From Cephalotus follicularis (Eukaryota; Streptophyta; Magnoliopsida; Oxalidales; Cephalotaceae), in NCBI GenBank assembly GCA_001972305.1, contig BDDD01000309.1, positions 124,001 to 188,000 on the forward strand: a stretch of 64,000 nucleotides of DNA, written 5' to 3'. Of the stretch, positions 13,353 to 64,000 are shown piece after piece. Both the position numbers and the translations under genes were made by a program. The stretch's first letter is position 1. Each line of letters starts with the position of its first letter. Below the pieces are notes generated by a model that saw only the letters and a list, made by a program, of their open reading frames with translations, was not told where the DNA came from and did no database searches.

Positions 13353-16300
13353 AGTGGTATTAGAGCGTTAAGTTGGTGTGTTGCATGATTTCGTCAGTCT
13401 CACAGATGGCTATCACAACTTTGAAGCACAAGGTTGAGGTGTTTGATGGAAAGAAGAATTTCAGTATATGGTAGAGTATTGCTAAGGATATAGTGATCAA
13501 ACAAGGCTTGTCGAAAGCTCTGAAGAGGGTGAAACCATAAACGATGAGTATTGACGAGTAGGAAGAACTTGAGGCAAATGCGGTTTTGATGATCCGATTG
13601 AGTCTGGCACCAAAGATCAAATACCGGGTTTTACAAAAGACTTCTCCGAAGGCATTGTGGGATAAACTTGAAAAGGTTTACATGTCGAATTCTCTATCAA
13701 ATTGATTGCATTTGAAGAAGGATTTGTACGAGTTAAGAATGACAGAAGGATCGGATTTGGTCAACCATATTAATGAGTTCAATTGATTGGTGACTCAATT
13801 GCCAAGTATAGAAGTTAAACTTGAAAAGAAAGATCAAGTCCTTCTCTTGATATTATCACTGCCATAATCATTTTCAACGGTGAAGATAACACTCCTTGTT
13901 GGAAATGAGAGATTAACAATTGATGAAGCAATGTCGACACTCTTAGATACCAACAAGATAAAGGCTACAAGTTCTACTGGTCAAGGAGAGAGCTTGGTAG
14001 CAAGTTCAGAACGATGTGGCATAAGTAATTCTCGAAAGAAGAACTCATGGAGGAAAATCGAGATCAAATTCATAGCCAAGAAAAAAGAATAAGTCTCATA
14101 TTGAGGTCTCATATTGAGTGTTTCCATTATCATGATAGGGTAATTATAGATCAAATTGTGAAGTTTTCAAGAAACATCTAGATAAGAAGAAGAAAGGGAA
14201 GAAGATCTCTAATTCTGCTAACATCACTGATGACAACAGTGATGGAGAATTGTACTCAATTTCGACAGTTATAGCACAAGGTAATTCTCTTTCCATAAAG
14301 GTTGATAGTTTTATCACAGATTGGATCCTTGATTTCGTATGTTCATTCCACATCTGTCACGGAAAGGATTAATTTGATTGCAATGGTGTTACTGTGTTGA
14401 TGGGTAACAATGCAGCTTGAAAAGTTATAGGTATAGGTACCATCAAGATCAAAATGTTTGATGGTATTGTTAGGACATCAGGGGATGTTAGATATGTTCT
14501 AGATTTAAAGAAAAACCTGATTTTTATAGGCACATTAGATGCATCTGATTGTAGTATTTCAATTAGAGGTGGGGTCATACAGATCTGTAGAGGATCAATG
14601 GTGATTATGAAGGGTAAAAAATCTAGAAATCTTTACCAGTTGATAGGAGATACAGTTATAGGTGAAGCAATAGTATTTAGAGACAGAGACTTCAAAGCAG
14701 CTTCTCATACCAACAAGGATGCACTCGATTATATACATTCAGATGTCTAGGGGCCGATAAGGCATACTTCTAATGGCGGGGCTCGATGTTTTGTTATCTT
14801 CATTAATAACTACTCTAGAAAAGTGTGGGTGTATTTTCTGAAGCACAAGTCAGGGGTTTTCAGTACATTCAAGCAACGGAAATCTAAGGTTGGAAATCAG
14901 ACTGGTAAGAAGATAAGGTACTTCAGATTAGATAATGGCATCGAGTAAAAAGATGACAAGTTCATTCAATTCTGCACGAATGAGGGCATCACTAGGCATA
15001 TCTATGTTAAGGGAAGCCCCTGGAAAAATGGACTAGCAAAGAGGATAGATAGGACACTTCTTGATTGGGCCAGATGTATGAGATTGAATGCTAACTTGCC
15101 AGTGAGCTTTTGGGTTGAGGCAATTAATACTGCCTGCTATTTAATCAACAGGTCTTCATCAGCAAACATTGACTACAGAGTTCTCGAGGAAGTGTGGTCA
15201 GGTAAACCTATTGATTTCTGAATTTTGAAAATATTTGGTTGTCCTTTATATGTTCACTTGCAGAATGAAGTGCGATATGAACTTGAACCAAAATAGAAGG
15301 AATATGTATTCCTTGATTATGAAGATGGAGTCAAAGGGTACATGTCATGGGATCCAGTGACCAAAAAGAAGGTGGTTAGCAGAGATGTTGTGTTCAACGA
15401 GAAGAAAATGTTGAATACAAATGAAGAACCAATAATTAAAGGGGAACAGAGACACATTGTAGATGTGGAGTTGCATGAGAATGAAAGAGAATTAGATGAA
15501 GTTTCAGGTGAGCAACCTACAGAGCAGAAGCAATCTTATAACTTGGTCAAAGATAGGGAAAAACGTGCTAGTAAACCTGCGCTGAAATATTGGTTTGAAG
15601 ACATGGTTATTTTTGCCTTGGTTACTGGGGGTGGAGATCCAATTAGTTACCTAGATGCTATACAGTCATATGAAAAAATCAAATGGGTGACAGGTATGAC
15701 AGAGGAAATGGAATCTCTACACAAGAATAAGACTTGGGAGTTGGTCAAACTTCCAAAAAGGTTTAAGGCTACGATTGCAAATGGGTATTCAGAAAGAAGG
15801 AAGGTTAGTCTGAAAAAGAAAGGGGAGAAGTATAAGGCAAGGTTGGTGGCAAAAGGGATCTCTTAGAGAGAGGGAATCGATTACAATGAAATTTTCTCAC
15901 AGTAGTCTAGCATACTTCTATCATGTTGATTTTATCTATCGTAGCATCATAAGATATGGAGTTGGATCAGCTAGATGTTAAGACAACTTTCCTACAGGTG
16001 ATCTAGAAAAGAAAATCTACATGCAACAACCAGAGGGGTTTATAGAATCAAGCCAAGAAGACTTAGTTTACAGGTTGAGAAAGTATTTATGTCTTCTGAA
16101 ACAATCCCCTAGACAATGGTACAAGAGGTGCGATACTTTTATGGTAACTCATAGTTACTACTATTGTCAGTATGATCCATGCGATTATTTTTGAACTCTT
16201 GATGATGATTCTCTTATCTTGTTGACTTTCTATGCGGATGACATGTTGATCGTTACCAAGAGAATGTTAGTTATCATACAATTGAAGAGATTATTGAGCA

Positions 16301-20788: not shown

Positions 20789-20938
20789 CACTTGTTGGCC
20801 TGCTAGCTAAGTATATTAATGCGTTGATTGAGATTGATTGAATGGAATTGCATGATATATGTTCTTGCTTATTCATGCCATTGTTTATTGGAAAAAAGAT
20901 TGATATTGGAATTGAAAGTGATTGCATTTGATCATCCC

Positions 20939-22535
20939 ATTATTGTCTTTTATAGCAATGGATAATAGAGGAAGACGTTGCCGACGGGGTGGAAGGAATA
21001 CTCCTGCCCTTGCCCCTGCCCCCGCGTCTGTTGATGATGAACCGGCTCATTATAACGTCTTTCCAGAGTATGATCCTAATGCTCTACTAGCCGGGGCTGA
21101 CCTTGAGGTTTGGAGACAGTTGTGTGCCACCATGGCACAGATGCATACTCTGATGGGACGCCGACAGGCTAGAGCTGAACATAGACCAAGGAGAGAAGAC
21201 ATGTTGAGCCGTTTCTTAAAGTTGCAATCTCCAGCATTTGTAGGACTCCCCGACCCTACCCTTGCTGAGTCTTGGCTAACTCAATTGGAAAAGATCTTTG
21301 AAGTCATGGGATGTGATGATGAACAGAAACTGGTATTGGCAGTGTATATGCTCCAAGGGGAAGCCGAGCACTGGTGGGCTATGGTGAATACAGATTGGAC
21401 AAGAAATGGTACAGCCCGCTCTTGGGATGCCTTCAAAAGAGAATTCAATGCAAGGTACCACCCTCAGGTAGAGACAGACAGATGAGAGATTGAATTTGCT
21501 AACTTGGTACAGGGAAGTATGATAATTGCTGAGTATGAGGCGAGGTTCATGCAATTAGCCTGAACTGCCCCGTACTTAGTGGAAGGCCAAGGGCATAGAG
21601 CAAAGAAGTTCCTTTGGGGACTGAGATTGGATTTGATGAGGCATTTGACTCCCTTGGGATTAATCCCCTATCGGATATTTCTTCCCGGGCTATGCAGCTT
21701 AAGGACATTGCAGCTGAGACTAAACTGATGAGAGATATGGCCCGCACCAGGCCTGCTCATTCTTCTTGGCAGGGTGGTAGTGACAGTGGCAGCGCGAAGT
21801 CGCAGAAGACTGATAGTAGCCCATCTCCTGGTTCTTAGGGTAGCAATCAGGATAACGAGAACCTGTCCCGTTCTCAGAGGAGAAACAGATCAAGGAACGC
21901 ACATCGTGGAAACCGATCTATAGCTCCTAGTCAGGGTACACCTTCTAGATTTTCTGGAAGTGGTGATCAGAGTGCTTTGGTCCCTTAGGTGCATTGTCAG
22001 AAAACCAACCATACTTCTGAGAATTGTAGGTGGTTTTTGGGTCTTTGCTTGGGTTGTGGTAGCTCCGACCACATTGCTAGAGTCTGCCCTCGGATTTTTC
22101 GTCCTAGAGGAGTGGATCAGATATAGCGGTTACTGCCTCCATAGGGACCGACTACCGGTATACTGTTTTCTTCCCTTGGGACTTCGCAGTCCGGAGGGAA
22201 ACAGCCTATGAGTTATGCTCCGACAGTTCAGGCCAGAGTTTTTGCTATGGAGCTGAGTGCTGCAGCAGGGTCTGATGTTGTGATTGGAGGTACTATTCGA
22301 CTCTTAAAGCTCCCTGCACGAGTTCTTATTGACCCAGGTTTATCACACTCATACATTGCATTGCATTTTGTTTCCTGTGTTGGTTTGAGACCTGAGTACC
22401 TTCCTTTCTTGATGGAGGTATCCACACCTCTCGGTGAGTCAGCGACTACCGATCGAGTGTGTAGAGATTGTGTTATTGAGATTGATGATCATTGCTTGTT
22501 CGCCGGTCTTATTATTTTACCGATGCATAGCCTAG
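20939..22535 (+). other. Chromovirus gag and protease start (fossil coding region)
   Basis: It begins with a Gly/Arg-rich leader (MDNRGRRCRRGG) and then carries the retrotransposon-gag pattern (PDPTLAESWLTQLEKIFEVM, QGEAEHWWAMV). A zinc-knuckle remnant lies near 21990-22110, and the pepsin-like protease begins near 22210 (LIDPGLSHSYIA). The solo LTR inserted at 22536 interrupts it. The frame is broken in a few places. Confidence 0.8.
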
Positions 22536-22925: not shown

Positions 22926-23835
22926 ACCTGTGTCAGGTGCAGAATTCTAAGTTTTATGTCACTTGAGGAGGAATTAAATGGATTGTGGGACACTTGTCAA
23001 GCAAGGAAAGGAAGACCTATGATATTTTGATGTTAAGGGACATGTGTCATCAGCTGAATTGGAGGAAATAAACACATGGGCAACTAGGAGGCAAACTCAC
23101 ATGGGTGAGGTCATGGATGACACCATGCAAGCTTGGCCTCCAAGTTTGTCTCTCCTATATATATATATATATGCAGCTTTTAACCTGGAAAAGGGTTGGT
23201 TTATGCTGAGTTTGGAGAGGAGATTTCAGCTAAGGGAAGAAGAGGAGGAGATCAAAGTGAGGTAAGGAAATTTTATACCCATTTATGTCAAAGCTTTCTC
23301 TGTTTTACTTCAAAATTATGCAGCAGATTGTTTTGTTCATATCTTGCTCGTTTCTTGATGAAATTTCAAATGGTTGAATGTTTTGAAAACCTTAAGATGT
23401 CTACTTTAACTGTTATATTTTATGCATCTCTAAATTCTGCATAATTCTTGATGAAAAGCCCCATTTACTTCTACTGCTTAGGTCCTATTTTCAAAAGAAA
23501 ACTACAACTTTAAAAATTCATTGCAGCTTATTTTCTCAATGGAATTTTATGATTTTTATCTCTATGGATTCTTTGAGATGTCTAGTTTAACTATGATGTT
23601 TTAAGTTTTTCAGGAAAGAGTTTATTTCTATATGAAATATCTATTTTAGAAAAGTTATGCAAAACTGTTTTATAAATGTTTTTTCGAGTTAATTACTCAA
23701 AGTGATGAGAAATGTTTTATGATTGTGAAATGAAATGAATGAAATGAATGTTTCTACACGAGAAACCAGTTTTAGAAATGTTTTACAATGATGTTTTATG
23801 AATGCTTTGATCTGATCACTCAAGGTATTAAGGAA

Positions 23836-24100
23836 GATTTTATGAATGCATTTGAGCTAACTACTCAAATGAAGATAAATGTTTTATGAATGCATTTGAG
23901 TTAAGTACTCAAATAAAGAGAAATGTTTTATGAATGCATTTGAGTTAAGTACTCAAATGAAGAGAAATGTTTTATGAATGTATTTGAGTTAAATACTCAA
24001 ATGAAGAGAAATGTTTTATGGATGCATTTGAGTTAATTACTCAAATGAAGAGAAGTGTTTTACGAATGCTTTGAGCTGGTCACTCAAAGTATTAAGAAAT
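23836..24100. repeat. 44-bp tandem array with an internal palindrome
   Basis: GTTTTATG recurs at 23881, 23925, 23969, 24013 and, slightly changed, at 24057, an exact 44-base step. Each unit holds TTTGAGTTAAGTACTCAAA or a close variant, whose TTTGAGT and ACTCAAA arms are complementary, so every unit could fold into a hairpin. Confidence 0.9.
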
Positions 24101-25385
24101 GTTTTATGAAATGAATGAACAACTACTGGATTACGATCCAGTGAGGATTAATCTAGTAAAGACTAATGAATGAACCACCATTGAATTGCGATCCAAGGGG
24201 AATGAATCCGAAATGGATTATGATGGAGCGTAAAGTGCTCGCGGACATGCATGTGACGTAAGTATAGTAATCCGGGAGTGCACAATGCCCCAGTGAAGTG
24301 GTGTGAAAGGGTTCATTAAAGGTTCACGACCATTAAGTTTTATGAAATGTTCTGAATCATGAGATATGATTAGAAAAAGAAAAGGAATTTGAAATGTTCT
24401 TGTTGTATACTAGAAAAGGGGTTTTAAAGATGTTTTGTTTATGAATGTGAAGAAAATGATTTTACTGATGTTCTCAAGTATGGCTATGATACAAGCCAAA
24501 AGAAGGTATGATTGAAAAACGTTTTTGATTGTTTTCAAGTATGTCGGTGTTATACACACAGAAAAATGTATGATTTTAGAAATGTTCTGATTTTATGAAA
24601 GTTATCCAAAAAATGGATTTCAATAGTACAATGTTCTGGTCCTATAAACTAGAAGATGATTTTCAAAGATATTTTGAAATATATGATGTTGAAACGTTTT
24701 GATATAAATTATCAAAAACAATGGATTTCGATAACGTTTTATGACTATGTTTCGTACTGGGAAATTTAAAGCTCAGTCCTTTCAATGTCTTGTTTTCAAA
24801 CAAATCTTCCAGGAAACGTTGAACGTGAAGTTGCGAGCTTTAGAGGAAGTTCGCAAAAGAAGTGTAAGGAAAGGAAGTATGATATTCTATGAAGTTATGT
24901 TTTAATGTCATATGTTAATGTTTTCTGCCATGTAACGTTTTATGATAAACGATGTGTAGATGTTAAAGTAAGGAAATGAAAGCTATAGGTTATGATGTTT
25001 TTATGTAAGATGATGATATCTAAAGTTATTGAACATACTTGAGAGTATGAGAAGTTATTGGTAAAGGTGAGTATATGATTGTTTTATGATGTAATAAGTT
25101 TATGTTTTTCCGCTGTGTAAGGTTACATGTTAAGTGATGTACAAATGCAAATGTATTAGAAATGATCATGATAATGGGAATATGATATTTTGAAATTAGT
25201 GTTTCAAAGATGTAAGCATATGTGATCCTGCGAAGTTATTGAGTAATAATGTTAGATTAAATAATTAATGGATAGTTAATTGATTAAACGATTTGATGGT
25301 TAATGGTTCACCCCACGTAACGCACCGATTCCTCGAGGCTCGCTTTGAGCATAAAGTGGACTCGGGTCGGGGGCGTTACACCTAG

Positions 25386-36531: not shown

Positions 36532-37647
36532 TTAACCAAAAGTATAGGAATCACCTACCTCATTCTCGTTATCCTCATCATCATCACTCAATGCCATAAA
36601 GCATAGGTTTGCTACTTGCTCGGTGACTTCATCTTCGGAGGATTCATCATCACTTAGGTGCCAAGCCTTGAGTGCTTTCTTCTTGAATAGCTTCTTTTTC
36701 TTCAATTGTGGGCAATCAACTTTGATGTGCCCCGGTTTGTTGCATTCGAAACATGTGGGAGGATCCATCTTGCTTCCTTCTCCCTTGTTGAAGTTTCTCT
36801 TTTGAAATCTTCTTGCCTTGTTCATCTTTGCGAATTTTGTAAACCGTTTCGCAAAGAGAACATAGTCCTCTTCCTCTAGCTCATCTCCACTAGACATTTC
36901 TTCCTTGTGTGTACTTTTGAGAGCAATGTCCTTTCTTTTCTCCTCTTGCGGCTTTGTCTCCACCACATTTGCCAATTTCTTGTTCAATTTAACCTCATGA
37001 GTCATGAGGGAGCCTAGAAGTTCTTCAATCTCCATTGTCTTCAAGTCCTTCGATTCTTCAATTGCCGTCACCTTGGGTTCCCACTCATCATTGAGACACC
37101 CTAGCAATTTCCTTACAAGTTCGTCCTGCCCAAATACCTTACCAAGACTAAGCAAACCATTAGTAATATCAAGCAACCGATTATACAAATTCTTAATGGA
37201 TTCGTTCGGTTGCATTTTAAACAATTCATAATCTCTATTTAGCAAGACAAGTTTGGCATTCTTAACTTGCTCGGTACCATAGTGGGTTAGGGTGAGCAAT
37301 TTCCACACCTCATGTGCGGAAGTACATCTCCTAACGAGATTGTATTCGGTCTTGTCTAAAGATACAAGTAAAATGTTCAAGGCCTTGTTATCTATAGTCA
37401 ATTTTCTAAAGTCATCCTCATCCCATTCGTCTTCCGGTTTGGAAACGAGTTCATTTTTGTCATTGAGCTTCATAGGGGTGTGAGGGCCATTCTTAACACT
37501 AAGCCAATTCCTAAAGTCTCTAAACTTAAGATATATCTCCATACGGCTTTTCCAATAAGGAAAATCGTCACCACTAAAGAATGGGACCTTAAATTCGGAA
37601 ACATCGTCATTGTGTCAGGATTGGTTGTTCATGCTAGTAGCGGCCAT
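36532..37647 (-). other. Sirevirus-type gag with zinc knuckle
   Basis: Minus strand: VPFFSGDDFPYWKSRMEIYL begins the gag core, and WKLLTLTHYGTEQVKNAKLV with YELFKMQPNESI follows in the UBN2-type pattern of SIRE/Maximus elements. CFECNKPGHIKVDCPQ is a CCHC zinc knuckle near 36730. It acts as the capsid and nucleocapsid component in autonomous relatives. Confidence 0.85.
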
Positions 37648-46346: not shown

Positions 46347-46582
46347 TAGGGATGATAACGGGTCTTTTATGATACATATTTTTTTTTAATCCGTATCTTA
46401 TCTGAGTAAGGATAATCAAAATCGAGTCCGATCCGATTCGTTTTTATAATTTTTTTAAAATTTAAATTATAATATATATCAAAATTTTATGAAATAATTT
46501 TAAATAATTTTTAAAAATATATATAATAATAATAAAATATTAAATATAATAAATTTATTATATATCAAGACGGGTTCGGTTC

Positions 46583-47483
46583 TGTTGATACAGAAATCCT
46601 TCTCTCAACAGTATCCTACGTGGAAGACTTTGATTTGTTAAGAGAAACGCCCGTCACTGATGCCTTGAGGAAGAAGGTTGATCTCGGACACCTGCACAAG
46701 GTAACAAAAATGGTGGAAAGCCCAGGAGGTTGTTCTCCCGGGGACACTCCGACGCTCAAGTTAGTCATGTGCAGATGTAATATAATACTCTCTTGAATGT
46801 GAAAATTGCTGACCTTTGTTCAGTATGTTGAACTCGTATTTATAGTGGAGTTTGGTAACTAATAGAGCGTGTGAATCGGATGTGATCTTTATCCCCTAGG
46901 GAAATGCTGAGGATCCCGGTCATTCCCTTCATCTCCGCCTGTAATCTCGCAGTTTCCTTAAGTAGTTGGATATATCACTACTTCTTCATTCGGATAAGTA
47001 CGGATCCCACTAAATCTGGTGAAGATGATAACCTTATCCCGTAGATAAGGTTGAGGTCCTCCATTATAGGATGATAGAGTAAATTGGTTGTAATACTGCT
47101 GCAGAGGTCACGGTCCTCCTTGGTCCGAGAACCAAACTAACTTGAATATGTCCGAGAAGGAGCTTCTCAGTTTTTGTATTGGGGAGGGCGTACCTCCGGT
47201 CCTCCGCCTGATAGATACTTTGGGCCGAGGGAGTCCTCGGCCCTTACACCGTGAATGTGGTCTTCTGCCTGTGAGTCCGAGGAGTGTCCTCGGACTTGTG
47301 GTCTCAGTGTGTTGCCCTCAAAAAATAATGATCCCCGGCTCTTGGTCCGAGAAGGACATTCTTTGTCATGTGTGCGCTCCTCGGCACGGCCTGTTTGTCA
47401 AGCTTGTAACCCCTGATGGACAGCTGGTCAAATCTGCTATGGACATCTGTCCTTGTTAATATAAACATATTTTTCCTCCATCA
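46583..47483 (-). repeat. 3' LTR of the Tat-type derivative
   Basis: Plus-strand ends TGTTGATACAG and CTCCATCA. The TATAAATA box on minus is at plus 46837-46844. It shares its length and nearly its full sequence with 50822-51722. Confidence 0.93.
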
Positions 47484-47500
47484 TATGCCCCCCTGATCCT
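47484..47500 (-). other. Polypurine tract (minus strand)
   Basis: On minus, AAGGATCAGGGGGGCATA leads directly into the LTR start TGATGGAGG at 47483. A purine tract here means that plus-strand DNA synthesis starts at the left LTR, so the element is oriented minus. Confidence 0.7.
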
Positions 47501-47910
47501 TATTCTCTGACATTGGTCAGAGGAGGAGGATCAGAGTTGAGAGCCTTGGCCCGGGCAATACTCCTCTGCAATGTTTTCTGTTGGCCTTTCTTGCACAAAC
47601 GGTCTGGGGCCGAGAGTATATCCTTTGTCGTTCCTCTGCCACACACCCTAGTCTTTTTGAACTGAGGACTAGAGCCTACCCTTTGGTCTGCCACCAATCT
47701 TTTCAACAGGCCTCAAGTTTTGAACTGTCATGATTAGCCTTTAGGTTGCGCATTGGGTACGCTTCACACGTGGCATGCACAGAGCAACTCCCGCCTTTGC
47801 CTCTTCGGTTCCCGCGCTTGTTTCCTCATTTCCCACGCCTGATTTGACAATCTGTCTTCCCACCGTTGGATCTTATGCGAGGTGGAGGGCCAGGATCCGA
47901 GGAAAGGGCC

Positions 47911-47918
47911 TATAAGAG
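47911..47918 (+). promoter_or_regulatory. TATA-like box of the antisense gene
   Basis: TATAAGAG on plus lies about 210 bases before the ATG at 48121. A CT-rich leader (TTCTTCTCTCATCACACC) and a donor-like GGTAAGTTCC near 48043 follow, as in a plant core promoter with a 5' UTR intron. It is independent of the LTR promoters, which read the other way. Confidence 0.5.
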
Positions 47919-48120
47919 CTTTTGTTCTTCTCTCATCACACCTTTCGCTTCTTCAACCTTCAAAACTCCTAGTGCTTTTTCGAGAGCTTAGATTCGCAGT
48001 GTTTTCAGTTCCCTTCTTCTTCAACTCTTCAAATCAAAAGTTTTGGTAAGTTCCTGTCAACTTCTTTGTTTTCCCAGATTATTTTCTTCTTCCTGTAATT
48101 TCTTCTCCTTCAACTTTTAA

Positions 48121-49107
48121 GTGATGGCTAGTCAAGAACTGTCCACTGGGTCTCCTTCTTCTTCTTCTTCTCCCCTGTCCGTTGCGCCTTTAGCCATGGT
48201 GGTTCCCACCGCTGAAAGGCTAGCCAACGTCGAAGGTAGTTCTAGGGCTGCTGTGGGTGACCCTGATGCGCCCACTGCCGAGGTCAATCCTCTGCCCGAG
48301 GATTGTGCCTTTGGTTTAAGTAAACTTAGTCAAGCCGAGGTCAAAAGGCTTAGCAGAAAGTATAACTTCCCTCGTGGGTTGACCTTCAACCTTCCTAAGG
48401 ATCCTCGGGTAGTCACCGAGAGCCGAGAAGGCCTCTTTGTAGTCTTCGAAGCTGCTCTTTCCCATGGTCTGAGGGTCCCTGTCCCCTCCTTTGCCATCTC
48501 GGTCCTTCTTAGCTTTAGTCTTCATCCTTCTCTTCTTCAACCTCAGTCTTGGGGCTTTATGATAGGTTTCTTAGTTAAATGTATAGAGTCCGAGGTTGAA
48601 GCCACTGTGAATCTCTTCAAGGAGTTTCATGTCATCTCGGCCACCCCCAAAACAAGCGGGTATTTTTTCAAGTCCCGTTCTAGGGTGAAAAAACTTCTCC
48701 TCAACCCCACCCAGTCTATAAAGAACTGGAGGAGAAAATACTTTTTGATAAAGGACTTCGAAGGGTTTATTCCCTCCCCTTGGTGTACCTCCTTAGATGT
48801 CAAATCTCTAAACCAAAAATCTCGTCTGTCCTCGACTGAAAAAATAGGACTTAATAAGCTCCTGGCTCTTGAGCCAGAGGATGTTAACTCCACCATAACC
48901 GAGGATCGCCTGGTCCAGGCAGGACTAAGTGTGGTCCTCGGACAGGAGTCCTCCTCGGACGGATCTGAGGAGGAGGAATCAGAAGGAGAGGGAGAGCAAA
49001 GTAGTCCTCTGCCCCCAATGTCTGAACAAACTTGTATAAAACCTTTGTCTTCTCTGTCTCTTCCATTAATACTGTTTTTACTAACCCTTGCATTCTCTGA
49101 TCTCTAA
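48121..49107 (+). CDS. Antisense ORF 1: putative gypsy-type transposon (PF04195-like) domain protein
   Basis: The open frame of 328 residues has a Ser/Pro-rich N-terminus. From about residue 75 it carries the domain described in Pfam as putative gypsy-type transposon (recalled as PF04195): SQAEVKRLSRKYNFPRGLTF, GLFVVFEAALSHGLRVPVPS, LQPQSWGFMIGFLVKC, and KNWRRKYFLIKDFEGFIP later. An acidic tail (SDGSEEEESEGEGE) follows. The last residues probably run into an intron-like spacer rather than coding sequence. Tat-lineage elements such as Grande, RIRE2 and Tat4 are known to carry an extra antisense ORF near the 3' LTR, and this ORF sits in that position and orientation. The protein's role is unknown. 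The start was chosen because MMAS follows the leader directly. Confidence 0.65.
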   Translation: MMASQELSTGSPSSSSSPLSVAPLAMVVPTAERLANVEGSSRAAVGDPDAPTAEVNPLPEDCAFGLSKLSQAEVKRLSRKYNFPRGLTFNLPKDPRVVTESREGLFVVFEAALSHGLRVPVPSFAISVLLSFSLHPSLLQPQSWGFMIGFLVKCIESEVEATVNLFKEFHVISATPKTSGYFFKSRSRVKKLLLNPTQSIKNWRRKYFLIKDFEGFIPSPWCTSLDVKSLNQKSRLSSTEKIGLNKLLALEPEDVNSTITEDRLVQAGLSVVLGQESSSDGSEEEESEGEGEQSSPLPPMSEQTCIKPLSSLSLPLILFLLTLAFSDL

Positions 49108-49134
49108 CACTGACTTTCTTGTCTTCTTTCAGCA

Positions 49135-49593
49135 ATGCCTCCTCGTCGTGATCTATCTTCCATCATCAAGTCCACTGATCAGAGGAGGGCCTCTACTGCC
49201 ACTGCCTCGAAGCCTCAGGCAAAAACTCCCGCGGCCGAGAAGACAAGGCCGCCGACCAAGACACCTCCTTCTCCTCCTTCTAGGGTCTCGGTAGCTGTGA
49301 CCGAGAAGAGGAAAGAGACCGGCAAGAGGCCGGCTGACAACGCCCCCTCCTCTGAATGAGCTTCTCTGACAAAGAGGAGCAGGAAGGGCAAGGCTGTGGA
49401 CGGCTCTGATAAAGTTCGAGAGGTCGAGGATGTTGCTGCCCTCGGATCCAGCTCCCAGGATCCAATAATCATTCCCCCATCCCTGACGATGGACGAGCTG
49501 CTTGATGGGTTTGATGGCATGGAGTGTGACCACTTGAACTTAAACGGTCCAGGGGTTGCCCAAAGACTTAGTCGGCTAGTCTTCTTGCCCTAG
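49135..49593 (+). other. Antisense coding block 2 (low-complexity linker)
   Basis: It begins MPPRRDLSSIIKSTDQRRAS after a CTTTCAG acceptor-like site. It is rich in Pro, Lys and Thr, and later in acidic residues (SLTMDELLDGFDGM). In proteins of this kind it joins the N-terminal domain to a C-terminal coiled coil. The block is not continuous as one open frame. Confidence 0.45.
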
Positions 49594-49771
49594 GAGATGG
49601 AGGCGAGGCAGAGATGGACCAATGAAGACTTGGCGACCGTTTGTCTGAAGAGCCACCTGAGGGTAAATGATCTCTTCCTTCGTCATCTTAACTTTTCTTG
49701 CACTTTAGTTTTTTATAATTCCTAACACTTTTTTACTTCTCTGACAGTCTCTGAACAACACCCAGCTGCTT

Positions 49772-50584
49772 GTGGACAACTTCTGTGTAGTTGTGGCCAG
49801 GGACCGAGAGCTGAGGTCGAGCATGGCCACCTTAGAAGAAACTGCTCGCTCGGCCCAAGCCCAACTGAACGAGGTTCTAAAGGCTCAGGAATCCTTGGCC
49901 GAGGAAAAGAAACAAGCAGTTGAGGCCCTGGAGGAGGAGAGATCAGAGTATAGGAGGCTCGAGGCCAAGCTGAAACTGGCCGAGGAGAAAAATTATGACC
50001 TGGTGGCCAAGCTTGAGCGGCAGCAGAGGAAAGACAAAGAGCAGCTGAGGAGGGAACAACACCAGGCCGTTGCCGACTTTAAGAACTCGGAGGAGTTCAA
50101 GGAGTTGCTGAGGTTCTCGGTGGAGGAGTTTAAGGGCTCAGAGGAGTTCGATGAAGCAGTCTTCCAGGAGTCGTCCGAGTACTTTCGCCGAGGCTTCTAT
50201 GCCTGTCGGAACTGGGTCGCTTCTCTGAAGCCTGATTTCCCCTTGGATGAAGTGGTGTATTGTCACTCTGCCGATGCATTTGACTTCTACCCTGAGGGGA
50301 TTTATGAGGTGGAGGACCAGGTCCGTCAGAGGTTGGCGCAAGAGGCCTCGGCTGGTCCCGTGGATGTTCCGGCTACCTCCACTTCTCCCGAGGTGGCGAT
50401 TCTTGCTGAGGATCCCACTGCTACTTCCTCGGACCCTGCAGTAGACTCCTCAGCTCTTCCTCCTTCTCTAGAAGACATTTTTGCCGGCGTTGGAAATCCT
50501 CCTCTGCCCTCTACTGAAGCCTTCTTTCCTCCTGCTCCTGTCGAAGATCCTCCTTCAGAGCACGATGATGCTCCTCAGGCTTAG
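49772..50584 (+). CDS. Antisense ORF 3: coiled-coil C-terminal part
   Basis: The open frame of 270 residues begins inside the exon-like block that opens after a CTCTGACAG acceptor-like site (about 49747). Residues 10-120 form a long coiled coil (EETARSAQAQLNEVLKAQES, EEERSEYRRLEAKLKLAEEK). A globular segment follows (FKNSEEFKELLRFSVEEF, ESSEYFRRGFYACRNWVASL), then an acidic Pro/Ser-rich tail (PSLEDIFAGVGNPPLP). Plant proteins annotated as putative gypsy-type transposon often end this way. It lies on the same strand and in the same order as ORF 1, so they are probably parts of one spliced antisense gene. Function unknown. Confidence 0.6.
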   Translation: MDNFCVVVARDRELRSSMATLEETARSAQAQLNEVLKAQESLAEEKKQAVEALEEERSEYRRLEAKLKLAEEKNYDLVAKLERQQRKDKEQLRREQHQAVADFKNSEEFKELLRFSVEEFKGSEEFDEAVFQESSEYFRRGFYACRNWVASLKPDFPLDEVVYCHSADAFDFYPEGIYEVEDQVRQRLAQEASAGPVDVPATSTSPEVAILAEDPTATSSDPAVDSSALPPSLEDIFAGVGNPPLPSTEAFFPPAPVEDPPSEHDDAPQA

Positions 50585-50821
50585 CTTTTATTTTTACTCA
50601 GCTTCATTATTTGTAGCCTTGAATTTAAACCTCAAAGCATACTCCAATGTCCAACCATCTGGACTCGTCAACACTAACCCTGCCCCGCTGCCAGTGAGGC
50701 ATGAGGATCCATCCACTGATAACTTCCACATTCCCTTCTCGCTCTCGGAAGGGTTCTCCTCCATACACCCCGTAGGTGTATTATCTCCAACAAAGTCGGC
50801 CAGTACCTGAGATTTGATTGT

Positions 50822-51722
50822 TGTTGATACAGAAATCCTTCTCTTAACAGTATCCTACGTGGAGGACTTTGATTTGTTAAGAGAAACGCCCGTCACTGAT
50901 GCCTTGAGGAAGAAGGTTGATCTCGGACACCTGCACAAGGTAACAAAAATGGTGGAAATCCCAGGAGGTTGTTCTCCCGGGGACACTCCGACGCTCAAGT
51001 TAGTCAGGTGCAGATGTAATATAATACTCTCTTGAATGTGAAAATTGCTGACCTTTGTTCAGTATGTTGAACTCGTATTTATAGTGGAGTTTGGTAACTA
51101 ATAGAGCGTGTGAATCGGATGTGATCTTTATCCCCTAGGGAAATGCCGAGGATCCCGGTCATTCCCTTCATCTCCGCCTGTAATCTCGCAGTTTCCTTAA
51201 GTAGTTGGATATATCACTACTTCTTCATTCGGATAAGTACGGATCCCACTAAATCTGGTGAAGATGATAACCTTATCCCGTAGATAAGGTTGAGGTCCTC
51301 CATTATAGGATGATAGAGTAAATTGGTTGTAATACTGCTGCAGAGGTCACGGTCCTCCTTGGTCCGAGAACCAAACTAACTTGAATATGTCCGAGAAGGA
51401 GCTTCTCAGTTTTTGTATTGGGGAGGGCGTACCTCCGGTCCTCCGCCTGATAGATACTTTGGGCAGAGGGAGTCCTCGGCCCTTACACCGTGAATGTGGT
51501 CTTCTGCCTGTGAGTCCGAGGAGTGTCCTCGGACTTGTGGTCTCAGTGTGTTGCCCTCAAAAAATAATGATCCTCGGCTCTTGGTCCGAGAAGGACATTC
51601 TTTGTCATGTGTGCGCTCCTCGGCACGGCCTGTTTGTCAAGCTTGTAACCCCTGATGGACAGCTGGTCAAATCTGCTATGGACACCTGTCCTTGTTAATA
51701 TAAACATACTTTTCCTCCATCA
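50822..51722 (-). repeat. 5' LTR of the Tat-type derivative
   Basis: 901 bp, same ends as the left copy, TATA box on minus at plus 51076-51083. It is the 5' LTR because the LTR promoter reads leftward into the interior from here. Confidence 0.93.
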
Positions 51723-51881
51723 GGTTCGGATACGGATTGATTACGATATACTGATGAAATTACTATCCTGGGTTTATCACGTGAGGCATAAATAGAAAAA
51801 GAAAAACAGTAAAAATTTAAGCATATAACAATCCAATCGGCTAATGGGTGATCAAGAAAGCTGAAGTGCACCTAAATTTCT

Positions 51882-52421: not shown

Positions 52422-53468
52422 TGATAGGGTAAATATCTGTTTATACTAAGAAGGACACGTGTCCTTCGTGGATTCGGCCAATTGACCAGAAGGGTCTTGA
52501 AGCTCCCGAGAGGCCCAGCCTAGGACCCCTTTTTTCTGAAGAACCCATGCTGAGACATCAGAGGCGAGGAGAGCTAGATTGACCAAGAGCGCACTATAGG
52601 ACAGCCGTGCCGAGGACCTCCCCTGCCGAGGAGGTTACTTGGGGTATAGGTCAGAGGACCTCCCCTGCCGAGGAGCTTACTCAGGGTACAGGTCAGAGGA
52701 CCTCCTTCAGGGCACCAGTGCCGAGGACCTCCTTTACCCGAAGTGACTATTGGACATGAGACGGAGGACATACCCCCGCTACACAGATACCGAGGATTTT
52801 CTCCTCGGCACTATCCAAAAGGACCTCATCCTCGGATACATGTTAGAGGACCTGGCGTCCTAAGCGTACGTCACAGAGGAAGCACCAGAAAAAGAGGACC
52901 CATGAGCGAAAGGGGAAGCATGAGGCCCATCACCTCGACAACAGAGCCATGGCTCACTTCCTCGGCGGCCCTGTGGCAGAGGACCCCCACTTCATTTATG
53001 GGATAAGGGCATGAAACCTGCCTGATTTCCTGGGATTTGCCTTTATCTAAATAAGGAAGTAGTGATATAACGAACTACCAACAAGGGAAGCAGTGACATA
53101 TCTGGCGGAGATCAAGGGAAATGACCGAGATCCTCGGCATTTCCTTAGGGGACAGTTATAACCTCCTCTTTTCACGCTCAAACGGTTACAAGCCAGCACT
53201 ATAAATACAAGTTCAACAGTCTGAACAAAGGTCAGCCATTTTTACTCTTTAAAGAACCTTGTTTTCACTGTGCAAATGCCTAATTTGAGCGTCGGAGTGT
53301 CCCCGGGAGAATAACCTCCTGGACCTTCAACGTATTTGTTCCTCTGTGCAGGGAAAGCATTAACAGTCATCCACGACCTTGTCCTCGGAGCATCACAGCA
53401 GCGTTTCCTTAAACAAATCAAGCCCTCACACGTGGGGTACTGTTGAGGAAATAATTTTTGTATCAACA
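52422..53468 (+). mobile_element. Solo Tat-type LTR (1.05 kb)
   Basis: From TGATAGGGTAAA to TTGTATCAACA, flanked by CAAAT and CAAAC (4 of 5 match). TATAAATA lies at 53200-53207, with the conserved GCGTCGGAGTGTCCCCGGGA block near 53290. Its two ends match those of the LTRs at 1422 and 46583, while its middle differs, so it is a separate subfamily. No internal region. Confidence 0.85.
52612..52740. repeat. 42-bp tandem repeat in the solo LTR
   Basis: GAGGACCTCCCCTGCCGAGG begins at 52612 and 52654 and, altered, at 52696. The step is 42 bases, and GAGGACCTCC words continue to 52740. Confidence 0.85.
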
Positions 53469-62257: not shown

Positions 62258-62613
62258 TAGACCTGGCAAACGGGTACCCGTGGGTACGGGTGAGAACGGG
62301 TTCACCCGTTGGGTAACGGGTAATAATTACCCGTTTCTTAACGGGTACAAAAACCAATACCCATTACCCGTAAAAATTACGGGTACCCACGGGTACCCGC
62401 GGGTACCTGCGAGTTTTAATACATTTTACAATGTGAGATAAAATTTTATGTACCCGTGGGTACCCGCGGGTACGGGTGACAACGGGTGTACCCGTTGGGT
62501 AACGGGTAAAAAATACCCGTTTCTTAATGGGTAGGAAAACCATCACCCATTACCCGTAAAATTTGCGGGTACCCGCGGGTACCCACGGGTATGGGTAAAT
62601 TTTGCCAGGTCTA
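62258..62613. mobile_element. Non-autonomous hAT-like element (356 bp)
   Basis: Terminal inverted repeats TAGACCTGGCAAA and TTTTGCCAGGTCTA are flanked by exact 8-bp copies GATATAAT (62250-62257 and 62614-62621), the hallmark of hAT. The interior is made of GGGTACCCGTGGGTACGGGT words in two similar halves (about 62270-62415 and 62450-62600), many of them palindromic around GGTACC. No coding capacity. Confidence 0.92.
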
Positions 62614-63130
62614 GATATAATTAATGCTTTAAAGGGCTTTGGAAAAGTTTACACTAATCATGAACTTGTGAGTAAGATTCTCAGGTGCCTTCCAAAGTCT
62701 TGGGAACCCAAAGTAACTGCTATTGAAGAAGCAAAAGATTTATCATCTCTTCAACTGGAAGACTTAGTGGGATCATTGATGACACACGAACTTCGGATGA
62801 GCGATCAAGCAAGAAATTACCCAAAGAAGAAAACGATTGCCTTAAAAGCTTCAAAAGATGAAGAAAGTGATGAAGATGAAATGGCGTTGCTCACTAAAAG
62901 GATTAGAAAGATCCTTATGGACAAGAAGAACTTTTCCAAGAAACAATTAAAGAAGTTTCAATCCAAAGGAGATACAAGCAAGATCGAAAAAGATGAAAAA
63001 GAAGTTATCTGCTATGAATGTGACAAACCGGGTCACATAAGGCCAGATTGTCCTAAATTGAAGAAAAAGAAGGATAAAGTTAAGAAGAAGGCGATGGATA
63101 TAACTATGAATATGGATATGGTTATGGATG
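62614..63130 (+). other. Sirevirus gag, 3' part with zinc knuckle
   Basis: DIINALKGFGKVYTNHELVS and WEPKVTAIEEAKDLSSLQLE match the gag of the derivative at 36532-37647. CYECDKPGHIRPDCPK is the CCHC knuckle, and a Lys-rich run follows. Confidence 0.85.
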
Positions 63131-63150
63131 GTGAATCTAGGGACCATATT

Positions 63151-63168
63151 CTTTTAAGGAGAGGAGAA
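63151..63168 (+). other. Chromovirus polypurine tract
   Basis: CTTTTAAGGAGAGGAGAA is almost the same as the tract at 30427-30444 and leads directly into an LTR start. Confidence 0.8.
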
Positions 63169-64000
63169 TTTAACGCCCCGAAACAACCCCTTTACATTTT
63201 AGCATATTTTGCATTACATGGCATGGTATATATAGACATTATGGACGACGATTGTGCATATGGTTATTGATGACATAGGGGTATTTCCAATACCCTATGA
63301 TATGATTCTATGTATGTTTATGGTAATTGTTATGGATGAGGCTATATATTAGTGAGAGATCTATAAATAGAACCATAAAACCCCTAAACACATTCCTTCT
63401 CTATTCTCTCTCTATGTTTCTCTCTCTAACCCTCTCACAAACTCACCAAAAACATCACCATAACCAGCTGATTGATCCAAGAAGAAGAGGGGAAGGGTAT
63501 ATGATTGATCAAGCCTTTGATTGACACAAGATTGAAGCTCCATAGACCAAGAACTTGAGTTCTTTCTCACATTTTTCCACCTAGGATCAAGGTACAAGCT
63601 TCAATATTTGGTAGAAACCTTATCTACCTAAATATTCTATGATTTGCACATGTATCCACATATATGAACTGTTTTCATGGGCTGAGTTAAATGAAATTGT
63701 ATGGTTTCAATGTTAGGGTTTATAAGTGGTGAAACTGGGGTTTTGACCTAAAATTGATAAGGAATGGATTTGAAGGATTGAAAATGGTTTTAATGGCATA
63801 GAAATGGTTAATATGAATTGTATTAAACTTGAATTGAAAGGATTTGAAGAAAGGAATTGATTTGCAAAAGTTTCAATTTTTAGAACCCTAGTTATGCAAC
63901 ACTAAGTACTGACGCCTCTCCCGTGAGCATCACCGCTTAGGGTCTTATTTTCAACTGTCCATGCCTAACCTTCCTTTGGCAGAGTTTGGCTAAGCAAAGA
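63169..64000 (+). repeat. Chromovirus 3' LTR, running off the window
   Basis: It begins TTTAACGCCCCGAAACAACC and is collinear with the solo LTR at 42563: ACATGGCATGGTA, the TATAAATAGAACC box near 63362, CT-rich leader, GATTGACACAAGATTGAAGC, and the ACGCCTCTCCC / CATCACCGCTTAG words at the end. The outer end is not in the window. Confidence 0.85.

Follow-up and report, generated by a model that had tools for sequence, protein, structure and literature searches.

A probably dead, internally deleted Retand-type retrotransposon copy in Cephalotus follicularis and the predicted three-exon antisense gene of its family

Elements of the Retand lineage, among them Retand of Silene, RIRE2 of rice and Grande of maize, are long terminal repeat (LTR) retrotransposons of the Tat clade of Ty3/gypsy in which reverse transcriptase (RT), RNase H (RH), a second RNase H (aRNH) and integrase (INT) follow one another as RT-RH-aRNH-INT; the position of the second RNase H (aRH), after RH and ahead of INT, is a feature that the lineage shares with Ogre (PMC6317226; all papers are cited from the parts of their text available to us). 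They are flanked by a 5-bp target site duplication (TSD). A Transposase_28 (TRP28) gene lying antisense between pol and the 3' LTR is a stated feature of the lineage (PMC11963269, PMC7264820, PMC6317226), such an extra antisense gene having been reported in Grande, RIRE2 and Retand (PMC7264820, PMC11963269), and with 2 exceptions among 63 Retand clusters Transposase_28 is reported to be antisense (PMC11963269). Here we describe an element of 5,140 bp at 46583-51722 of a 64,000-nucleotide stretch of Cephalotus follicularis DNA (contig BDDD01000309.1, positions 124,001 to 188,000; hereafter the window, whose numbering is used throughout) and compare it with its relatives in the assembly (1.58 Gb, 9,746 contigs). 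We conclude, with a probability of about 0.93, that it is a lone copy of an abundant Retand-type element, dead and with internal deletions. Its frame and joints are as follows.

46578-46582, no strand: target site duplication GGTTC, low side, as in the printed sequence; contiguous at a paralogous empty site
46583-47483, minus strand: 3' LTR of the element, 901 bp, with 9 differences from the other LTR
47484-47499, minus strand: polypurine tract region beside the 3' LTR; its C run is present in 20/20 fetched relatives
50596/50597, no strand: deletion junction J2, integrase gone; the relatives have INT between these points
50597-50821, minus strand: 225-bp sense pol remnant (aRNH), 88.6-98.7% identical to 13 relatives, with a tblastn aRNH match at 50597-50695
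50821/50822, no strand: deletion junction J1, on the inner 5' LTR edge; primer-binding site (PBS), gag, RT and RH gone
50822-51722, minus strand: 5' LTR of the element, 901 bp, pairing with the 3' LTR
51723-51727, no strand: target site duplication GGTTC, high side, as in the printed sequence

Relatives were sought with 47300-48500 as query, the best 40 of 5,039 candidates being scored; the 41 matches listed comprise the window itself and, at 84-93% identity, 39 places elsewhere, one of them split into two matches. The best 20 of these 39 places (L009-L028) were fetched, 10 kb each, a selection that guarantees a match to the gene region. Alignment from the 3' LTR through the whole antisense gene is unbroken in 14 of the 20 and is interrupted or truncated in L010, L013, L018, L023, L025 and L026. 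Five domain pieces of L010, used as queries, detected RT, RH and INT together with all or part of aRNH in 13/20 relatives, and gag and/or pol stand beside the antisense gene in 18/20. L018 and L023 gave gag alone, L026 gave gag, aRNH, INT and part of RH with RT not detected, L012 (37% masked) gave INT, and no gag or pol domain was detected in L024 and L025, whose sequence is 47% and 69% masked. L019, without domains in its first 10 kb, was considered as a copy devoid of gag-pol and rejected, the adjoining 8 kb revealing an interrupted copy, with a second LTR as well as gag, RT and some of RH. A gag match in L027 (43%) and an INT match in L034 (26%) both lie outside the element's LTR and were excluded from these tallies.

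For nine of the 20 (L013, L015, L016, L018, L019, L021, L023, L026 and L028), both LTRs were seen or located, and gag or pol lies between them; the far end of the remaining 11 lies outside the fetched sequence. Among seven open frames scanned in relatives, Pfam recognised RVT_1, RT_RNaseH, RVT_3, Retrotrans_gag, rve and Integrase_H2C2. The order in the relatives is LTR-PBS-gag-pol(RT-RH-aRNH-INT)-[antisense TRP28 gene]-PPT-LTR, where PPT is the polypurine tract, and it agrees with the Retand lineage in the order of the pol domains and in the antisense Transposase_28 frame between pol and the 3' LTR. The second RNase H between RH and INT (Pfam RVT_3) was found in 13/20 relatives, partial in some, and as a 225-bp piece in the window copy. 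Lengths of 9,088, 10,831, 11,878 and 11,630 bp were measured for four relatives with two LTRs, a total of ~9-12 kb as in the lineage; their TSDs, read by eye, are 5, 5, 5 and 4 bp and their LTR pairs 96.2-98.9% alike. The TSD of the window copy, GGTTC, is also of the 5-bp kind.

The sense of the element is minus, as shown by its polypurine tract at 47484, by the TATA-like box CTATAAATAC of the LTR, which reads on the minus strand, and by the strand of gag and pol in the relatives. An earlier reading of the letters alone, made before any database search (the sequence-only reading), had already given this orientation, and the similarity it noted to the minus-strand LTR at 1422 amounts to 72% over 263 bp. 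At the polypurine tract, L026 differs by one base beside the tract, and the window copy differs from all 20 relatives by one base on the tract's other side. The earlier figure of about 1% divergence between the LTRs also stands: 9 sites differ per 901 bp (99.0% alike; Kimura two-parameter distance 0.0101), giving an insertion age of 0.39 million years at a substitution rate of 1.3e-8 or 0.72 million years at 7e-9. Such identity tells the date of insertion and says nothing on the activity of the deleted form. The element itself appears to have inserted in the ordinary way into a dispersed repeat, because L035 shows a paralogous empty site in which the left flank (239 bp aligned, 79%) runs straight into the right flank, aligned over its first 22 bp. 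Two other places in the assembly match the joined-flank pattern at 3 mismatches, and L036 aligns to the left flank alone.

Unlike Retand elements, the window copy is without PBS, gag, RT, RH and INT, and its aRNH is partial. At J2 the antisense-gene region ends directly against aRNH codons, without the INT stretch of the relatives. At J1 another aRNH point meets the inner 5' LTR edge, a second deletion, from that edge into the second RNase H domain, having removed PBS, gag, RT and RNase H. The sequence-only reading held that everything except the antisense gene was gone, which goes too far in view of the minus-strand aRNH piece that remains at 50597-50821. This aRNH coding sequence occupies the position of the PBS, and no PBS was found in the window copy, the best match to the 16-base PBS word anywhere in the element being 11/16. 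In contrast, GTTGGCRCCGYCTGTG, which holds the PBS, adjoins seven other 5' LTR inner edges (six fetched loci and the LTR at 1422), and L039 provides an eighth edge with a PBS; the inner LTR edge of L018 could not be placed and is outside this tally. The family-type PBS after the 5' LTR is therefore absent by loss in one copy, which is no ground for placing the element elsewhere. Since a tRNA on the PBS primes minus-strand synthesis (PMC5371799), a copy that has lost the PBS should be a dead end, unable to be reverse transcribed again by that route.

The sequence-only reading had instead proposed a distinct, recently mobile form retaining the antisense gene alone. Being non-autonomous, such a form would depend on full-length relatives for mobilisation in trans. 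The TSD, the polypurine tract and the two complete LTRs, 99.0% alike, would fit it, and precedents exist in the 10 of 63 Retand clusters without a gag or pol domain (PMC11963269) and in the amplified truncated copies of two rice families (PMC1940013). Yet the words spanning J1 and J2 each occur once in the 1.58-Gb assembly (<=3 mismatches), both at this locus. A 17-base aRNH word by itself occurs at 743+779 places (0+2 for its read-backwards control). In a DNA search across J1, with the best 40 candidates scored, no match beyond the window crossed the junction by >13 bases. Copies sharing the interior are what a genome search was expected to reveal if the form were mobile, and it returned the single junctions and, in 9/20 relatives, gag or pol between such LTRs. 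In addition, ten other same-contig, same-strand LTR pairs among the best 40 LTR matches span 10.1-13.7 kb (computed by hand), about twice the 5.1 kb seen here, the carried gene has two private stops, and the missing PBS makes renewed movement implausible. The idea of a mobile form is refuted within this assembly, and we consider it very improbable overall.

Comparison with described deleted elements leads the same way. Several copies with a shared deleted interior and separate TSDs, which a LARD- or TRIM-like form would show, are not seen, the junction words being single, and of PBS and polypurine tract the latter alone was kept. LARD- and TRIM-type elements likewise lack domains between intact LTRs, but are multi-copy. 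Polyprotein domains are also missing between intact LTRs in the non-autonomous Retand clusters of PMC11963269, but those clusters are multi-copy and the window copy is a singleton without a PBS. Like the window copy, internally deleted LTR copies of rice (PMC1940013) carry private deletions whose joints overlap little or not at all; the window copy differs from them in having one joint on the inner LTR edge. Within the Cephalotus family, private internal deletions, each different, are also carried by L010, L013, L018, L026 and C6 (L039:2013-3000). In C6 the leader with its PBS is joined to pol, with part of RH, aRNH and INT retained, and the aRNH piece sits 365 bp from an LTR; C6 was considered as a sharer of the window deletion and rejected, since its deletion is different and its PBS retained. 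The window copy thus represents a known kind of deletion derivative, present once, and as debris of an abundant element it is in itself of small importance.

Several points weigh against this account. The placement in the lineage rests on architecture rather than on a tree. A second copy of the deleted form keeps a small chance of existing, because the genome searches scored the best candidates only, partial masking affects 3/20 relatives and some of the genome may be missing from the assembly; a PBS might also be supplied by another route. Finally, C6 keeps its PBS and its deletion ends inside the leader rather than at the LTR edge, which argues against LTR-edge joints as a rule.

As to how the deleted structure arose, one deletion took INT and another everything from the inner edge of the 5' LTR to aRNH, the antisense gene being left at the 3' end by the chance of where both fell. 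Because J1 sits on the LTR edge, an aberrant strong-stop transfer is suggested, in which plus-strand strong-stop DNA, having ended at that edge, would have annealed in pol rather than at the PBS. Alternatively, a full-length element may have inserted and then suffered two chromosomal deletions by illegitimate recombination, a course with only slightly less than an even chance. The overlaps at the joints, 0-3 bp and varying with the relative compared, fit the illegitimate recombination with micro-homology described in PMC1940013, whose authors knew of no described insertion of truncated copies, and other fetched copies hold internal deletions of their own. A random break, however, would have had to strike a narrow target, J1 lying within about two bases of the inner LTR edge, although the weight of this argument is lessened by its being a single joint, spotted after the fact. 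Deletion during reverse transcription had seemed slightly favoured, but because the C6 deletion ends elsewhere we now hold it and deletion after insertion to be about even. Autointegration and a one-LTR circle, possible on paper as origins of J1, have no support and were set aside.

The gene kept by the deleted copy is the known Transposase_28 (TRP28) antisense gene of Retand elements, and it is this gene that is likely to be most useful to specialists. Its features are these.

47911-47916, plus strand: TATA-like box upstream of the antisense gene; TATAA at the same place in 20/20 relatives, promoter role putative
48124-49033, plus strand: exon 1, Transposase_28 (PF04195), Pfam E 9.6e-9
49034-49132, plus strand: predicted intron 1; GT in 17/18 and AG in 18/18 readable copies, window included
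49133-49662, plus strand: exon 2, broken in the window copy by in-frame stops
49663-49747, plus strand: predicted intron 2; GT and AG in 16/16 readable copies
49748-50584, plus strand: exon 3 with the stop codon; the frame continues from exon 2

What the sequence-only reading described on the plus strand, coding blocks with intron-like spacers behind a TATA-like box, is real and common to the relatives, and its suggestion of an antisense extra gene of a Tat-type element, as described for Grande, RIRE2 and Retand, is borne out by the Transposase_28 match. The three exons (48124-49033, 49133-49662 and 49748-50584) join in one frame; Transposase_28 was recognised in 10/10 exon-1 frames scanned (the window copy and 9/9 relatives, from 9 of the 20 fetched), and exon 3 gave no significant Pfam match (best E 0.27). 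In the window copy the gene is broken, exon 2 carrying in-frame stops at 49357 and 49591 that are present in 0/16 and 0/15 readable relatives. With its introns and a TATA-like box of its own on the plus strand, the gene might also be read as a host gene captured between two LTRs. Such a capture has still less to recommend it than the mobile form and was rejected: the relatives, chosen through 47300-48500, hold the same gene at the same place by the 3' LTR, most of them together with gag-pol, and the domain in every exon-1 frame scanned is the retrotransposon-linked Transposase_28, antisense in nearly all the Retand clusters cited above (PMC11963269).

The comparison of synonymous with non-synonymous change proposed in the sequence-only reading indicates purifying selection. 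The dN/dS ratio is 0.18 for exon 1 (95% 0.14-0.24; 19/21 copies), 0.27 for exon 2 (95% 0.20-0.37; 16/21 copies) and 0.23 for exon 3 (95% 0.19-0.30; 15/21 copies), against 0.90-1.94 in the shifted-frame control, with stop codons excluded and copy pairs non-independent. Differences in exon 1 at codon positions 1, 2 and 3 are 4.9, 6.6 and 17.1%, compared with 13.2, 12.4 and 14.3% in the LTR. Short indel runs (<=30 bases, in relatives with >=80% of the region; tallied per copy, so that shared indels repeat) come in threes in 52 cases and otherwise in 8 in the exons, in 0 and 20 in the introns (0/10 for each intron), and in 12 and 73 in the leader; runs were joined across columns gapped in both sequences, as unjoined runs would overstate frameshifts. 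Because of the low dN/dS, the retained splice sites and the contrasting indel patterns of exons and introns, the antisense gene behaves in the family as one three-exon protein-coding gene, held by purifying selection across copies and presumably transcribed and spliced as predicted. Against this, 19/20 relatives have stops in the gene or are missing parts of it, as would be expected of old insertions. Selection on the gene, raised as one possibility in the earlier reading, is real, but the ratios were measured mostly over copies that carry gag-pol.

The introns could outlast RNA-mediated copying, since the sense genomic RNA would hold them reversed and be unable to splice them. An antisense-intron marker is used for scoring retrotransposition, and the introns of the antisense gene would be its natural counterpart. 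The spliced intron of Ogre, in contrast, sits in the sense gag-pol region and is distinct from these (PMC6317226). The Retand survey of PMC11963269 counted antisense open reading frames (ORFs) of at least 600 bp, with introns unmentioned in the text available, whereas the gene here reads as three exons; antisense and spliced transcripts have been recommended as a search target (PMC7264820). In the mostly open-access literature covered, which did not extend to the Grande gene23 paper, we found no description of splicing or introns of the antisense TRP28 gene.

Taken together, the window copy and its 20 relatives provide strong sequence evidence that the TRP28 gene, to which no function is assigned, is multi-exon and selected. 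The selection, splice-site and indel patterns belong to the Cephalotus family, from which splicing and an extension to other Retand elements may be proposed. We see an evenly balanced chance that the antisense accessory gene is a single spliced gene of three exons across Retand, the separate antisense ORFs of surveys (TRP28, Smc-like, other frames) being its exons. If so, its product (~758 residues in the window element) would be larger than single-ORF surveys assume, and spliced antisense transcripts and a full-length protein could be looked for in whichever plants have had Retand elements active recently.

The window copy is a mosaic with respect to L009-L028 over 46583-50597, its LTR being near L015, L016 and L023 and its antisense gene near L009, L010 and L012. 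Sites separating L012 from L016 agree 9 times with L012 and 73 times with L016 in 46833-47332, and 127 and 23 times, respectively, in 47833-49332 (Fisher 1.9e-29, nominal since the sites are linked). This is a sign of template switching between subfamilies; the family recombines. The LTR match of highest identity outside the window, among the best 40, is in C3114 (98% over 849 bases); that LTR contains ~780 extra bases, and antisense-gene sequence (91%) lies further along the contig.

Elsewhere in the window, 1-1684 is a piece of a related minus-strand element with gag at 241-507 (80% to L010), a PBS and the LTR from 1422. At 52979-53468, ~1.3 kb from the element and on the other strand, lies a related LTR (71% over 479 bases); it is possibly a solo LTR, and no TSD was seen around it by eye. 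Further retroelement pieces were recognised by Pfam at 15297-15863, 20922-21482, 36535-37614 and 62599-63267, the matches in these four stretches being SH3_retrovirus with a weak RVT_2, Retrotrans_gag, and two copia-type gag frames with a zinc knuckle. A tandem array with a 44-bp unit in ~6 copies, inside a 132-bp period, occupies 23791-24110.

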